Origin: Nakamurella lactea DSM 19367
GTDB taxonomy: Bacteria; Actinomycetota; Actinomycetes; Mycobacteriales; Nakamurellaceae
NCBI RefSeq assembly: GCF_000426645.1
Contig: NZ_AUFT01000008.1
Location: 124,001 to 188,000, forward strand
Direction of reading: 5' to 3'
Length of the DNA stretch: 64,000 nucleotides
Shown here: positions 5,029-60,872 of the stretch, piece by piece
Position numbering within the stretch: the first letter of the stretch is position 1
Layout of the letters: each line of letters starts with the position of its first letter
Translations under genes and position numbers: made by a program
The notes under the pieces: generated by a model
What the model saw: the letters and a program-made list of their open reading frames with translations, nothing else
Database searches by the model: none
Told to the model about the DNA's origin: nothing

Positions 5029-5927
5029 GTCTGTGGAACAGTGACTTCCTGCCGACGTTGAACGTCGGGCAGTGGTTCAACAACGTGGTGAGCTGGATGA
5101 ACGACAATCTCGGCCCACTGCTGAACGTGATCGACGACGCGCTGACCACCCTGAACGACGGTCTGACGGATTTCCTCAACTGGGTGCCGCCGCTGATCAT
5201 GGTGTTGCTGCTCGCCGGTCTCGGCACCTGGGTGCGCGGCTGGCTGTTCGGGCTCTTCGCGGTTATCGGACTGCTGCTGATCCAGGCGATGCCGACCGCC
5301 GATCTGTGGCCCGAGGCGATGGAGTCGTTCGCCCTGGTGCTGGTGGCGGCGGTGATAGCGATGATCCTGGCCATCCCGATCGGAATCTTGGCTGCCAGCA
5401 ACGGGATCGCCTCCCGGATCATCCGGCCGGTGATGGACCTGATGCAGACCATGCCGGCCTATGTCTATCTGGTTCCGGCGTTGTTCTTCTGGAGTGTCGG
5501 GCCGACCACCGGCCTGGTCGCCACCATCGTGTTCGCGATGCCGCCCGGCGTCCGGCTGACCGAGCTGGGTATCCGCCAGGTCGACCCCGAGATGGTGGAG
5601 GCGGGCCACGCGTTCGGCGCGCCGCGTCGGCAGATCCTGCGCGGCATCCAGTTCCCGCTGGCGATGCCGACCGTGATGGCCGGCATCAACCAGGTGATCA
5701 TGCTGTCGCTGTCGATGGTGGTGATCGCCGGGCTGGTGGGCTCCGGTGGGCTCGGTGAGCCGGTGTACCAAGGTATTTCGAATCTCGACCTGGTGACGGC
5801 GTCCGAGGCCGGGCTGGCCGTGGTGGTGCTGGCCATCTACCTCGACCGGCTGACGTCGGCGTTCGGGGACAAGTCGGCGGTGGCCAGGGCGAGCCGACCC
5901 AGGAAGAAGGCGGCCGCCACGGCGTGA
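5025..5927 (+). CDS. proW: Glycine betaine/proline ABC transporter permease
   Basis: A 300-residue inner-membrane permease of the ProW/OpuAB family. After an amphipathic N-terminus that includes LNVGQWFNNVVSWMNDN there are about six membrane segments. The coupling loop for the ATPase is the stretch around LTELGIRQVDPEMVEAGHAFGAPRRQIL, with the conserved EAG...G pattern (EAGHAFGAP). It starts with GTG in a four-base overlap with proV. Together with ProV and ProX it forms the importer that accumulates compatible solutes at high osmolarity. Confidence 0.95.
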   Translation: MSLWNSDFLPTLNVGQWFNNVVSWMNDNLGPLLNVIDDALTTLNDGLTDFLNWVPPLIMVLLLAGLGTWVRGWLFGLFAVIGLLLIQAMPTADLWPEAMESFALVLVAAVIAMILAIPIGILAASNGIASRIIRPVMDLMQTMPAYVYLVPALFFWSVGPTTGLVATIVFAMPPGVRLTELGIRQVDPEMVEAGHAFGAPRRQILRGIQFPLAMPTVMAGINQVIMLSLSMVVIAGLVGSGGLGEPVYQGISNLDLVTASEAGLAVVVLAIYLDRLTSAFGDKSAVARASRPRKKAAATA

Positions 5928-6000
5928 AACCGCGAGCAAGGAAGAACTGCAGTGAACTGAACACGGTGCAAACAGCTGCACGAACGATGAAGGGGAGAAC

Positions 6001-7056
6001 ATGCAGAGCAAGAAACTGAGGTTCCTGGCCGTCGCCCTCGCCGGCGCGGTCGCCATGTCGGTAGCCGCCTGTGGCAGCCGCGATGACGACAGCAGTGGCA
6101 GCAGTGCTGCCGATGCCGCCGCCGGCGGCAGCGAGTCGACCCAGAGCAGTGCGGCAGGTGGCGAGTCGGCCGGCAGTAGTGCGGCCGGCAGCGGTGCGGC
6201 CAGCGGTGCGGCCGGCAGTAGTGCGGCCGGCAGCGGTGCGGCCGGCGCCGGCGCTGGGAGTATCGGCGCCGACGAGGACACCAACATCACCATCGCCTAC
6301 ATCCCTTGGGACGAGGACGTCGCCGTCACCCATCTGTGGAAGAAGGTGTTGGAGGACAAGGGCTACACCGTCAAGATGCAGCAGCTGGAGGTGTCGCCGA
6401 CCTTCGACGCGGTGGCCAACGACAAGGCCGACCTCTTTTTCGACGTCTGGCTGCCGGTGACCCACGCGCCGCAGTGGGCGAAGTACAAGGACAAGGTCGA
6501 GGACCTGGGCACCTGGTACGACCAGGCCACGCTGAACATCGCCGTCCCGACCTATATGAAGGACGTCAACACGATCGCCGACCTGAAGAACGTCGCCGAT
6601 CAGGTGGACGGCAAGATCGTCGGGATCGAGTCCGGCGCCGGCCTGACCAGGGTCACCAAGGAGATGCTGGCCAAGTACGGCTTCGACGATCTGGACCTGC
6701 AGACGTCCAGCACCTCGGCGATGCTGGCTGCACTGGAGAAGGCCACCAAGGCCGAGGATCCGATCGTCGTCACCCTGTGGCACCCGCACTGGGCGTACTC
6801 GGCGTACCCGATCAAGGACCTGGAGGATCCGGACGGCGTGATGGGCGACAAGGAGCAGATCCACGTCATCGGCAACCAAGGCTTCGCCGCGGACCATCCG
6901 ATGGCGGCGGCCATGCTGAAGAACTTCACGTTGTCCGACGAGCAGTTGGCCGACCTGGAGAACGAGGTGCTGATCAAGAACAAGTCGAACCCGGACGCCG
7001 GTGTCGACGCCTGGCTGCAGAACAACCAGGAGCTGATCGACGGGCTCAGCAAGTAG
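6001..7056 (+). CDS. proX: Glycine betaine-binding lipoprotein
   Basis: Substrate-binding lipoprotein of the betaine importer, 351 residues. The N-terminal signal peptide ends in the lipobox SVAAC at about residues 20-24. Residues 25-90 are an unusually long linker made almost only of Ser, Ala and Gly with repeated SSAAGSGAA-like units. The OpuAC-type domain follows: ITIAYIPWDEDVAVTHLWKK, the ligand-binding Trp-rich patches FFDVWLPVTHAPQW and VTLWHPHWAYSAYPIKDLEDP. GGGGAG at 5993-5998 lies a few bases before the ATG. It is the last gene of the operon and is followed by a strong hairpin. Confidence 0.95.
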   Translation: MQSKKLRFLAVALAGAVAMSVAACGSRDDDSSGSSAADAAAGGSESTQSSAAGGESAGSSAAGSGAASGAAGSSAAGSGAAGAGAGSIGADEDTNITIAYIPWDEDVAVTHLWKKVLEDKGYTVKMQQLEVSPTFDAVANDKADLFFDVWLPVTHAPQWAKYKDKVEDLGTWYDQATLNIAVPTYMKDVNTIADLKNVADQVDGKIVGIESGAGLTRVTKEMLAKYGFDDLDLQTSSTSAMLAALEKATKAEDPIVVTLWHPHWAYSAYPIKDLEDPDGVMGDKEQIHVIGNQGFAADHPMAAAMLKNFTLSDEQLADLENEVLIKNKSNPDAGVDAWLQNNQELIDGLSK

Positions 7057-8813: not shown

Positions 8814-8851
8814 GCTGGGTGATCAGTGGTCGGCTGGGTGACCAGCGGTCA
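8814..8851. repeat. Imperfect 19-bp tandem duplication
   Basis: GCTGGGTGATCAGTGGTCG (8814-8832) is followed directly by GCTGGGTGACCAGCGGTCA (8833-8851), three differences in 19. It lies between the MFS gene and the sigma-factor gene and just touches the sigma stop codon. Its function is unknown; it could be a pair of binding sites upstream of the MFS gene or a slippage product. Confidence 0.5.
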
Positions 8852-9715
8852 CCTGGCGAGTGCGGCCGGCCTGTCCAGCCGTGTCAGCTTCTGCGGATTT
8901 CGCATCAGATAGATCCGGGTGATGCTTCCGTCCTCCACGACGACGCTCACCGCGGTCGTCTCGCCGTTGATCTCGAACCGGCCCGCCGGCGCGCCGTTGA
9001 GCCACACGGTCGTCGTCTCGAACCCGGCCTCCAGTCCATGTGCGCGGGCGAGCACCTTCGCCACCAGCTCGGCCCCGTGAATCGGAGCCAGCGCGGCGGC
9101 CACGATCCCGCCGCCATCAGCGGTCAGGACCACGTCCGGTGCCATCACCTCCATCAGCTCCAGCAACTGGCCGGTGCGCAGGGCGAGTAGGAAGCGTTCC
9201 ACCACGGCCTGCTGCTCCGACCGGCTGACCCGCACCCGCGGCCGCCTGGCCGCCACATGCACGCGGGCCCGCCGACCGATCTGCCGCACCGCGGCCGCGG
9301 ACTTCCCGATGGCCTCGGCGATCTCTTCGTACGGCAGGTCGAAGACCTCGCGGAGCACGAACACCGCGCGCTCGGCCGGGCCGAGCGTTTCCAGCACGGT
9401 CAGCATCGCGATCGAGACGCTCTCCGCGAGTTCGACGTCGTCGGCGACATCAGCGCTGGTCAACAGCGGCTCCGGCAGCCAATGGCCGATGTACTCCTCA
9501 CGGCGGCGCGACAACGTTCGCAGCCGGTTGAGCGCCTGCCGGGTAACGATTCTGACGAGATACGCCCGCGAGTCGCGCACCTGGCTGCGGTCGACGTCGG
9601 CCCACCGCAGCCAGGACTCCTGCAGCACGTCCTCCGCGTCGGCGGCCGACCCGAGCATCTCGTAGGCGACCGTGAACAGCAGGCTGCGATGGGCGACGAA
9701 CGGGTCGTCAGTCAT
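8849..9715 (-). CDS. sigJ: SigJ-type RNA polymerase sigma factor (ECF sigma with SnoaL-like C-terminal domain)
   Basis: A 288-residue ECF sigma factor. Region 2 is LLFTVAYEMLGSAADAEDVLQESWLRW with the DAED/VLQE motif, and region 4 is AVFVLREVFDLPYEEIAEAIGKSAAAVRQIGRRA. After about residue 165 a SnoaL-like domain follows (VVERFLLALRTGQLLELMEVMAPDVVLTADGGG), the hallmark of the SigJ/ECF41 group, in which this domain controls the sigma instead of a separate anti-sigma factor. The ATG overlaps the preceding gene by four bases (ATGA). The pairing with a carboxymuconolactone-decarboxylase-like gene is typical of ECF41 loci. Confidence 0.93.
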   Translation of the reverse strand: MTDDPFVAHRSLLFTVAYEMLGSAADAEDVLQESWLRWADVDRSQVRDSRAYLVRIVTRQALNRLRTLSRRREEYIGHWLPEPLLTSADVADDVELAESVSIAMLTVLETLGPAERAVFVLREVFDLPYEEIAEAIGKSAAAVRQIGRRARVHVAARRPRVRVSRSEQQAVVERFLLALRTGQLLELMEVMAPDVVLTADGGGIVAAALAPIHGAELVAKVLARAHGLEAGFETTTVWLNGAPAGRFEINGETTAVSVVVEDGSITRIYLMRNPQKLTRLDRPAALAR

Positions 9716-23990: not shown

Positions 23991-24859
23991 CTACCCCTGG
24001 ATCTTCTTGATGAATTCGGCAACGGTGAGGCCGGTGACCTCACGAACCAGGGGATCGTCACTGCCTGGCGCTCCGGCGATACGGCCGCTGGCATCCACCG
24101 GCAAAGCGCCCGAGCAGGTGAAGTGGTAGGACCCGTCTGGGTCCTTCTGGAGCGCGAAGACTGCCGTCGATCCGTCCTCGAGGCGCGCCGTCCCGGCATG
24201 GTCAGCGGATACCAATTCGGATCGTCGATCTGGCCGCGCGTCCACCCGACGTCGGTCATGTCAAAGGCCGAATCTGCGCGAACATCTCCGGAGATCGTCT
24301 GCTGAACGCTGACCGTGAGGATTCTCGGCAGGAGTGTGACTTCCGGCGTATAGCTGCCCAGATCGTTGCTCGTCGGTGCCGAAGTTGTCGCAAGGACGCT
24401 GAGATCCTTGCGCACGGCGGTCACCTTGCCGAGCACGATGATGGCTGTTTTCGATTTCAGTTGGCCGGCATTCTCGACATAGCCGTCTTTACTGCAGGCG
24501 CCGCTCGCCGTTTGTGGTTCGTCGTTGTGGAAGGTCATGCCGCGCTCGACTTCGACCCGAGCCTGCGTCTCAGTGACGCGAGTCGAAGCCTGCGTCCCAG
24601 TGACCCGGGGCGACACCTGCTGGTCCGGTGTCGGCTGGGGTTGCGCCTGTAGGGGCCCGGAGTCGGGTCGCATGAGCAGTATCGATGTGGTCACTACTGC
24701 GATCGCCACCAGGCCGGCAGCAATGGCGAGGAGGCTATTCCGATGACGCCGGCGGTGGTTGCTGGGGCGTGCCCGCACCTCGCCCGGGCCTCGCAGCTGG
24801 TCCTCGGTCACGCTCGCTGCCTGTCGCCGGAGCGCACGCGCGATGTCATCTGTGTTCAT
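23991..24859 (-). pseudogene. Anti-sigma-factor-like membrane protein gene with a frameshift
   Basis: The frame starts with MNTDDIARALRRQAASVTED, has one membrane helix (LLAIAAGLVAIAVVTTSILL) and a secreted-side domain up to DDPNWYPLTMPG near 24190. There the frame changes: the natural continuation TARLEDGSTAVFALQKDPDG, ending FIKKIQG at 23991, lies in the -1 frame. Without the shift the first frame runs on as Arg-rich nonsense. One missing base in the CCGGGA run at about 24190 would explain it. The layout (short cytoplasmic N-terminus, one helix, sensor) and the upstream sigma gene suggest an anti-sigma or sigma-associated sensor. A sequencing error is possible. Confidence 0.65.
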
Positions 24860-25355
24860 CGGTGTCCCTCGCCATCCACAATTTCAACGACTGAATGGCG
24901 CGGTGCGTGGAGGAACGCACCGCGCCGACGGATATGCCCAGCTCATGGGCCGTTCGTTCGGTCGACCAATCCAGATAGAAGCGGAGGATCAGGACGTCCT
25001 ACTGTCGGTTGGGGAGCCGCCGTATCGACAGCATCAGCGCCCGATCGAAGGCCGCCAGCGGATCCTCGGACACGTCTGCTCCTGCCAGTGGCGCAGCCGC
25101 AAGTCTGTCGATCGCGCGGCGCTCGCTGTTCTTGCGGCGTACCGCCGACCGCGCGCGGTTGGCCACAACAGTCCGAAGGAACGGCAATGGCGACGAGATC
25201 TCGGAGAGCTGCAGGTTTGCAAAGGCGTCTTGGACGACGTCCTCGGCCTCCGCGGTGTTGACGGTCCACAGGCTCGCGAGGCGCACCAGATCCAAGTAGT
25301 GCTTGCGGAACAGTTGCTCCACCCCCGCGTCGTCAGATCTGTCGGGACGCGGCAC
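24846..25355 (-). pseudogene. SigE-family ECF sigma factor gene interrupted by an in-frame TAG
   Basis: From GTG at 25355 (GGGGGAG just upstream) the protein reads VEQLFRKHYLDLVRLASLW and TAEAEDVVQDAFANL, a sigma region 2. It then stops at TAG (24999-25001) after SIRRLPNRQ. The same frame continues without another stop as DVLILRFYLDWSTERTAHEL and GISVGAVRSSTHRAIQSLKL, a complete region 4 helix-turn-helix, to TGA at 24846. The reconstructed protein would be about 169 residues with one nonsense codon where R or Q is expected. The end overlaps the anti-sigma-like gene by 14 bases, so the two were coupled. Upstream (25356-25529) I see no gene. Confidence 0.75.
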
Positions 25356-27327: not shown

Positions 27328-27693
27328 TCAGACCAACGCCTGTCCGATCGTCCAGCCGAGCGAGGCGGCACCCAGTCCGGCCAGCAGGGTGACCACGACG
27401 TTGGCCACCGCCTGCCGGTGGGCGCCGGACCTGGTCAGCTGGAGCGTTTCGAATCCGAAGGTGGAAAACGTCGACAGCGCACCGCAGAAGCCGGTGCCGA
27501 TCAGCATCGCCAGCTGCGGATCAAGGCCGGCGTTCGCCCCGGCCAACCCGCCGAGGATCAACGACCCCAGAATGTTGACCCCCAGCGTGCCCCAGGGGAA
27601 GACGCTGCTGTGCCTGGACTGCACGAACCGGTCGATCAGATATCGGGAAGGCGCGCCGACGGCGGCGCCGACCACGAGTAGCAGCACCGTCAT
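27328..27693 (-). CDS. crcB: Fluoride efflux channel subunit CrcB/Fluc (second of pair)
   Basis: A 121-residue membrane protein with four helices. CrcB motifs are GAAVGAPSRYLIDRFVQ, FPWGTLGVNILGSLILGGLAG and GTGFCGALSTFSTFGFET, where the Asn of VNxxG and the Phe of the TFSTF box line the fluoride pore. Fluc channels are dual-topology dimers; here two genes encode the two orientations, as is common in Gram-positives. The ATG at 27693 overlaps the stop of the partner gene (ATGA). Confidence 0.95.
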   Translation of the reverse strand: MTVLLLVVGAAVGAPSRYLIDRFVQSRHSSVFPWGTLGVNILGSLILGGLAGANAGLDPQLAMLIGTGFCGALSTFSTFGFETLQLTRSGAHRQAVANVVVTLLAGLGAASLGWTIGQALV

Positions 27694-28250
27694 CCCCTGG
27701 CCTCCGGCGTGGCCGGCGTGACGTCCGCCGGGCCCGGCCCGGGCACCGGACCGATGCCGCGGCGGGTGACGGATCCGGTCACCACCCAGCCCAGCCATAC
27801 CGCCAGCAGGCAGGCGACCATGGTGAGCGCCAGGTATCCGAGCGCGGCTGTCGGTCGGCCGGCCAGCACCAGGGTCTGCGCGTCGACGGCGAACGTCGAA
27901 TACGTGGTGAAGCCGCCGAGCACGCCGACCCCGAGGAACGGCCGCAGCAGTCGCGGCGGATGCGGGCGACGCAACAGCAGCGACATCAGCACGCCGATCA
28001 GCAGGCAGCCGGAGACGTTGACCAGCAGGGTGGACCAGGGGAAACCGCCGGGCGGGTGCGGAACTGCGAGGTCCAGCCCGTGCCGCGAGAGGGTGCCGAT
28101 CACCCCGCCGGCCGAGATCGCCAGCAGCAGGTCCCACTCCCGCGGGCGGGTCTCGGCGAGCTGGTCGGCATCGTGCAGATCGACATCGGGGTCGATCACC
28201 GTGAAGCCGTCGGGAAGGTTGGTCCGATGACGCTCGGATCGGTCGGGCAC
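27690..28250 (-). CDS. crcB: Fluoride efflux channel subunit CrcB/Fluc (first of pair)
   Basis: A 186-residue homologue of the next gene, with motifs AGGVIGTLSRHGLDLAV, FPWSTLLVNVSGCLLIGVL and GVGVLGGFTTYSTFAVDAQ. It has a 45-residue hydrophilic N-terminal extension and a Pro/Gly-rich tail that the partner lacks. The GTG at 28250 has GGAGGT four bases upstream. The two subunits probably form an antiparallel heterodimer exporting fluoride. A degenerate fluoride-riboswitch-like segment lies about 80 bases upstream (28331-28376). Confidence 0.93.
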   Translation of the reverse strand: MPDRSERHRTNLPDGFTVIDPDVDLHDADQLAETRPREWDLLLAISAGGVIGTLSRHGLDLAVPHPPGGFPWSTLLVNVSGCLLIGVLMSLLLRRPHPPRLLRPFLGVGVLGGFTTYSTFAVDAQTLVLAGRPTAALGYLALTMVACLLAVWLGWVVTGSVTRRGIGPVPGPGPADVTPATPEARG

Positions 28251-31290: not shown

Positions 31291-31911
31291 TCACTGGATG
31301 TGAGAACGCTGCGTGAGCGCGTTCCAGCCGGCCATCGCGCCACTGATCACCGCTTCCAGTTCGCCGCGGTCCGCACCGTCACGGGCCTGGATCGACAGGC
31401 CCTGCACCACGGTGGCGTAGAAGCGGGCAACGGCGTCCAGATCACCGGCAGGGACGGTGAGGTCCCCCTCGACGACACCCCGGGCGAGGCGCCCTCTGAT
31501 CGCGGCGAACTGCTCGCGCCGGATGTCGGCGAGGAATTCGCGAATCGCGTCGTTCTCCACGGCGCCGGTCGGCGCGGCCAGGATGAGCATGCAGTAGTGG
31601 GGTGCGTCGGAGCGGGTGATCTGGTCCGCGGTCGCGCGCAGCATGGCGTGGATCGCGTCCCGGGTGGTCGCGTGTTCGGTGAGCGCGTTCCGCGGCGGCG
31701 CGCCTGCTGTGCTGCCGTAGAGCGCCATGACCCTGCGGAACAGGTCGTCCTTGCTGCCGAAGCACGCATAGATGCTGGCCGAGGCGATGCCCATGGCCCG
31801 GGCCAGGTCGCTGAGCGAGGTGCCCTCGTAGCCGTGTTCCCAGAACACCTCCAGCGCCTGGCGCAGGGCGATGTCCGGGTCGAACGTGCGAGGTCTGCCG
31901 CGAGCTGCCAT
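31291..31911 (-). CDS. TetR/AcrR family transcriptional regulator
   Basis: A 206-residue repressor. The N-terminal helix-turn-helix is [20 protein letters not shown] followed by [16 protein letters not shown]. The C-terminal ligand domain is typical of the family ([20 protein letters not shown]). I use the ATG of [12 protein letters not shown] at 31911. It is divergent from the quinone-oxidoreductase gene, and the shared region contains two TGATCGATCA-like palindromes, so it probably represses both genes and responds to an electrophile or quinone; the ligand is inferred only. Confidence 0.92.
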
Positions 31912-38840: not shown

Positions 38841-39371
38841 TCACGCCCGCCGCGCGGTGAAGCTGTAACAGCCGGCGAGCACGTTGTGCGACTGGACGAA
38901 GTCGACCTCCGGGTCGGCCAGCATCTCCTCGATCGCCGCCAGCAGTCCGGTACCCGGCTCGACGAGTCGGCCCAGCCGGTAGACGATCCGGTGGTGGTGG
39001 CCGTAGCCGCGCAGGATCTGCCGGCGCTGCTCGAACGGCTCGGGCAGCGAACCGTCGGGGACCGACGGGCAGCGGTCGGCGTGGATGACGATCGGGCCCG
39101 CCGCCCGGTAGGCGCCGTGCCAGGGGAACGGCGACCAGTTGACGATCGCCAGCCGGTCGCCGACCCGCGAATCGGTGAGACAGCACCGCATCGGCCAGTC
39201 GCCCTCGTCATCGGTGAAGGGCTGCACCGGATTGCCGTCGTGGTCGACGCCGGACTCGCGCAGCCGAGCCAGCTCGTCGAGGTCGATGCCGGTGATCCGG
39301 GCCGACTGGGTCCGGGTGTGAATACGTGCCGGTGCCGGTGCCGGTGCTGATGTCGGTGTCATGTCCTTCAT
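38841..39371 (-). CDS. DUF1203 family protein
   Basis: A 176-residue protein of the DUF1203 family, whose function is unknown. Recognised pieces are MRCCLTDSRVGDRLAIVNWSPFP, GAYRAAGPIVIHADRC and the C-terminal VDFVQSHNVLAGCYSFTARRA. The N-terminus contains a run APAPAPA from a GCC/GGT-type short repeat near 39330. Its 3' end meets the end of the PLD region on the other strand. The gap 39372-39536 holds no gene that I can support. Confidence 0.85.
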   Translation of the reverse strand: MKDMTPTSAPAPAPARIHTRTQSARITGIDLDELARLRESGVDHDGNPVQPFTDDEGDWPMRCCLTDSRVGDRLAIVNWSPFPWHGAYRAAGPIVIHADRCPSVPDGSLPEPFEQRRQILRGYGHHHRIVYRLGRLVEPGTGLLAAIEEMLADPEVDFVQSHNVLAGCYSFTARRA

Positions 39372-60733: not shown

Positions 60734-60872
60734 CAGGTAACCACCAGGTGACAGCGACGCCGGCTCCCCCGAAGAGACCGAACGGGACCTGATCAGTCTC
60801 GCGCACGCCTTCGTTGTCGTCGGTAACGAAGTCGCAACGGAGGGCGGCCGGCCGCCAGGGCACAATGGCGCG

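Follow-up and report, generated by a model that had tools for sequence, protein, structure and literature searches.

The locus studied here lies on the minus strand of a 64-kb window (the whole stretch of DNA that was analysed) and comprises two overlapping genes: a frame for an ECF-type sigma factor, interrupted by a TAG between its two conserved regions, and a downstream gene in which the coding signal probably changes frame. Its features are the following:

25002–25355, minus strand: N-terminus and region 2 of a sigma factor gene, most probably a pseudogene; 118 codons from GTG 25355; Sigma70_r2 (PF04542) 33 bits, for a cut-off of 24
24999–25001, minus strand: in-frame TAG, in an alignment column that holds arginine in 124 of 132 homologues
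24846–24998, minus strand: region 4 frame past the TAG, 50 codons plus the original TGA; on this 50-residue fragment alone, Sigma70_r4 (PF04545) 35.7 bits, for a cut-off of 24.1, and Sigma70_r4_2 (PF08281) 34.6 bits, for a cut-off of 25.7
24194–24859, minus strand: downstream gene, first frame, partly overlapping the sigma frame; encodes a short N-terminal part, a single hydrophobic stretch and the beginning of a presumed outer domain
24169–24205, minus strand: zone in which the downstream gene probably shifts frame, with 24193 as the best breakpoint
23991–24192, minus strand: second-frame remainder of the coding signal of the downstream gene, ending in TAG 23991–23993

The sigma frame begins at GTG 25355, with a purine-rich GAGGGGGAG just upstream, and no stop occurs between the TAG and the terminal TGA (24846–24848, minus strand). 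The first-pass annotation had placed this frame and its coordinates exactly, and the region 4 that it had read after the TAG was confirmed, both region 4 models passing their cut-offs on the fragment alone. Regions 2 and 4 indeed occur in the usual order and spacing of ECF sigma factors of the TIGR02983 type, from which the gene differs by the in-frame TAG between the regions and by a score below the cut-off. The ECF superfamily model TIGR02937, applied only to the read-through frame, was passed with 63.5 bits (cut-off 42.9), and the best NCBIfam subfamily of the read-through protein was TIGR02983 (SigE-fam_strep), with 106.5 bits where the curated cut-off is 141.55. The SigE family proposed earlier thus holds as the nearest subfamily, but not as a membership at the curated threshold. 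Three intact relatives likewise scored below 141.55 (114.3 and 113.7 in genome G015, 130.2 on contig 15 of G000, the window's own genome), so that the gene is best named SigE-like ECF. With regard to ECF sigma factors as a class (group IV sigma-70), both regions are present, but they are not covered by a single uninterrupted frame, owing to the TAG.

The nearest homologues were two uninterrupted genes of G015, a genome of the same genus, with 51% and 48% identity. Both halves of the sigma frame align with them, which shows that this is not a chance open reading frame. The gene thus combines a disrupted frame with intact homologues elsewhere, as is typical of a pseudogene. An alignment was made of 132 homologues from the loci examined, after hits whose query coverage was short or whose matched stretch was identical had been removed from the 139 BLAST hits. 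Identity to the closest homologue in this alignment was 0.42 before the stop and 0.50 after it, so the post-stop part is no more decayed than the pre-stop part. Sixteen columns are conserved in 90% or more of the homologues, and the frame departs from the consensus in one of them, the TAG itself; at 80% or more it departs in 5 of 29 (median homologue 2), and at 70% or more in 14 of 49 (median homologue 5), a level of at least 14 departures being reached by 32 of the 132 homologues. The inactivation had previously been called recent, a claim that is moderately supported by the single broken column at the highest threshold; at the two lower thresholds the frame is somewhat more divergent than the typical homologue. 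The intact state of the remaining frame, from which recency had been argued, is weak evidence of age, since the DNA has 67–71% GC.

Internal stops were counted more widely. Such a stop was present in one of the 84 PF08281 (region-4-type) matches in the window's genome and in one of the 21 matches to the sigma protein in this genome, in both cases the sigma frame under study. When sigma matches were summed over 61 genomes, two out of 135 were flagged with a stop, the window's own and one TGA in genome G016; the latter is a natural terminator, since the open frame there ends three codons before the match does.

At the TAG column itself, the remaining homologues beside the 124 with arginine had lysine (4), glutamine (2), glycine (1) or alanine (1). 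The codon found there is one substitution away from TAG in 4 of the 132, two in 41 and three in 87, and the two closest homologues have CGC and CGT. As 128 homologue codons are two or three substitutions away, the single nonsense change put forward in the first-pass annotation should not be assumed, and it appears doubtful; the codon of the immediate ancestor may have been one for glutamine or lysine. The same count bears on an error of assembly or sequencing, according to which the real sigma codon would be a sense codon and the real downstream gene would have no frame change. The genome is indeed a draft in 27 contigs, and two lesions within less than 1 kb could signal a poorly resolved stretch. 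A one-base error, however, requires a codon one step from TAG, which makes the sequencing error envisaged earlier less likely in that form. In addition, no further unexplained frame switch was found in the 64 kb, and internal stops are absent from 83 of the genome's 84 region-4-type matches. We therefore regard such an error as unlikely.

Readthrough of the TAG, programmed or by a suppressor, would allow low-level production of a full-length sigma factor, in line with a frame that is intact and conserved past the TAG. This possibility, also raised previously, is nevertheless very unlikely. Indeed, none of the 59 tRNA genes of the genome, found with the Rfam tRNA model and assigned by ARAGORN (special tRNAs outside both models would escape), has a CTA, TTA or TCA anticodon and would read TAG. 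Moreover, TAG ends 6 of the 43 genes that codon statistics predict in the window and is thus an ordinary stop, and none of the other 134 sigma matches in the 61 genomes was reported with an internal TAG. Neither a TAG-reading tRNA nor an in-frame TAG conserved in homologues, either of which would point to a recoded gene, was thus found in these sets. As a separate observation, 14 tRNA genes lie within about 3.2 kb near a contig end (G000 contig 4, 300–3900), an array which largely duplicates isotypes encoded elsewhere in the genome and which may mark a mobile element or a phage. It includes a tRNA-Leu with anticodon AAG, which is unusual in bacteria.

Region 2 being intact, the truncated protein could also be kept for a function of its own, such as that of a core RNA polymerase competitor or an anti-sigma decoy. 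The presumed partner gene is probably broken too, and no homologue truncated at the same place was seen among the sigma matches of the 61 genomes, which makes this explanation very improbable. Alternatively, regions 2 and 4 could act as two chains of a split sigma factor, region 4 being produced by re-initiation after the TAG. A precedent has been described in Bacillus subtilis, whose sigma factor SigO-RsoA has its sigma-2 domain on one protein and its sigma-4 domain on another (PMC8103513). At the TAG itself there is an overlapping AGGA, and four bases further on comes an in-frame CTG, the third codon past the stop. By contrast with SigO and RsoA, which are encoded by two proper genes, the second part has no canonical start here. 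The first in-frame ATG, GTG or TTG past the TAG is GTG 24920, which sits within the helix-turn-helix, so that translation of the whole of region 4 would have to begin at a start such as CTG. Split versions were not seen among the homologues, and we consider a split factor extremely unlikely. Both this and readthrough are thus disfavoured, the former by the lack of an ATG, GTG or TTG yielding a complete region 4 and the latter by the tRNA gene content. If the split reading were true, sigma activity would depend on translational re-initiation, making the locus a single-gene counterpart of SigO-RsoA.

The downstream gene starts at ATG 24859, within the end of the sigma frame, with an overlap of 14 bases. 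Its two-frame log-likelihood was +26.8, versus −10.5 for one frame, i.e., the frame change is worth 37 log units, and a sliding view of the codon statistics displayed the same switch near 24193. When the 64-kb window was scanned by dynamic programming at three settings, same-strand frame switches numbered 18, 15, and 12, the loosest list also taking the terminal TAG of the downstream gene (23991) as a read-through stop. Fourteen of the 18 switches were ordinary gene junctions, with the upstream frame closing no more than about 40 bases away, and three corresponded to short or upstream stretches that lack domain matches. The first, at 31885, has an upstream frame of at most 25 codons and vanishes at the strictest setting. 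The second, at 39309, persists at that setting; the gene concerned has its DUF1203 match downstream of the switch, and the alternative frame has no Pfam match. The third, at 60743, is upstream of an aldo/keto reductase match, has no Pfam match in its alternative frame either, and vanishes at the strictest setting. The switch at 24196, in the downstream gene, was the one left.

This frameshift is probable rather than proved, since it is deduced from codon statistics and since no homologue spanning the switch was found, the first-frame part having been searched in 17 genomes, viral contigs and plasmids, and the second-frame part in 101 genomes. Both parts were compared with all open reading frames of at least 80 amino acids in the loci examined, minus five with the window's own place, and gave only weak matches besides the N-terminus of a G015 gene. 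The N-terminus of the downstream gene is 35% identical to this gene, found at the same place in G015, over 57 aligned positions, with an E value of 5e-5 in a single comparison and of 0.21 in the all-ORF search. Weak matches at three other loci (L140, L167, and L168), whose encoded proteins look unrelated to the operon, were treated as chance.

The product of the downstream gene is probably membrane-anchored, in line with its hydrophobic stretch (judged by eye), and is perhaps a regulator of the sigma factor, a putative role. Its position next to the sigma gene and the overlap fit the anti-sigma pattern, while its best family match, CU044_5270, reached 20.3 bits, far below the cut-off of 100. 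Similarly, an anti-sigma model matched one of the G015 neighbours weakly (18.4 bits for a cut-off of 100). The two sigma/membrane-protein pairs of G015 share with the present pair a second gene whose start lies within the last part of the sigma gene and an N-terminus with one hydrophobic stretch. They differ in that their sigma genes have no stop, their partner genes are uninterrupted, and the outer domain of the partner is not recognisably related to that of the window. It should also be mentioned that in G015, at 5071–6378 of locus L039, one close homologue of the sigma gene and a second sigma-like gene (5860–6378, plus strand) are arranged head to head, each of the two being followed by a membrane-protein-like gene, as read by eye. 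A possible ECF-like autoregulatory promoter was considered upstream of the sigma gene of the window, where one TGAAC...GCGTC is present. Since the two strands of the window together contain 41 occurrences of this loose motif and neither of the G015 upstream regions has it, the autoregulation reading was dropped.

The family of the window's genome comprises 17 genomes of one genus, all of which (17 of 17) contained a sigma match with an E value of 1e-15 or better, none exceeding 51% identity besides G000. In these genomes, the best matches of the flanking genes were located away from the sigma matches, and no common neighbourhood was seen. An intact ancestor of the locus was thus not seen in the family, the nearest sigma homologue being only 51% identical and the flanking genes matching best elsewhere. 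In the named genome collection, none of the best 80 of 251 confirmed loci exceeded 42% identity in its best segment. Within the window, the pair is flanked on the minus strand by a glucose/sorbosone dehydrogenase-like gene (PF07995; 22788–23933) and a zinc alcohol dehydrogenase gene (PF08240 and PF00107; 25530–26576). Two adjoining minus-strand genes at 27328–28250 both match CrcB (PF02537), and we take them to be, possibly, a paired fluoride exporter. Another sigma-type gene, without internal stop, is located at 9257–9679 on the minus strand, in an open reading frame at 8849–9715 (genome matches within C6:133257–133679).

The best reading of the locus is that of an ordinary pseudogene: most likely, it is the remnant of a two-gene operon for an ECF-type sigma factor and a putative regulator, and this operon is on its way to being lost. 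Inactivation of the sigma factor by a nonsense codon, as proposed in the first-pass annotation, is the best reading of the TAG, which lies before region 4 and replaces the arginine of most homologues. The probable frameshift downstream had been missed, so that a decaying operon should be considered, rather than one broken gene. In terms of mechanism, the TAG would end translation after region 2 and lead to a protein without region 4, which should in turn be unable to recognise the −35 element. As ribosomes would be halted at the TAG, 140 bases short of the point where the downstream gene begins, lower translation of the latter would also be expected. The downstream gene itself has probably lost its frame in the presumed outer domain. 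Two lesions in one operon, together with the lack of any other unexplained frame switch in the window, suggest relaxed selection on the gene pair. According to our own arithmetic, the chance that a random second lesion would hit this neighbour of about 0.87 kb, within about 53 kb of called genes, is near 2%.

The order of events may be envisaged in two ways. The sigma factor may have been lost first, the partner drifting afterwards, or the partner may have been damaged first, a nonsense mutation in the sigma gene then being favoured because it would silence an unrestrained sigma factor. This regulator-first order is biologically possible, by analogy with mucA-algU (algT) of Pseudomonas aeruginosa, for which nonmucoid strains combining a truncated MucA with a damping suppressor mutation in algU are described (PMC3750012). 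The analogy concerns the order of lesions only, the regulator role of the partner being putative in the window. Codon adaptation of the pair was 0.05–0.11 log units per codon, whereas the median was 0.30 among the 43 genes called in the window. Such poor adaptation is consistent with a locus that is little used, newly acquired or in decay, and it could instead reflect recent horizontal acquisition.

In practical terms, annotation of the two halves of the sigma frame as a working sigma factor should be avoided, and as a pseudogene the locus otherwise has little significance. It illustrates, on a small scale, how a sigma gene and the gene next to it are apparently being lost together.
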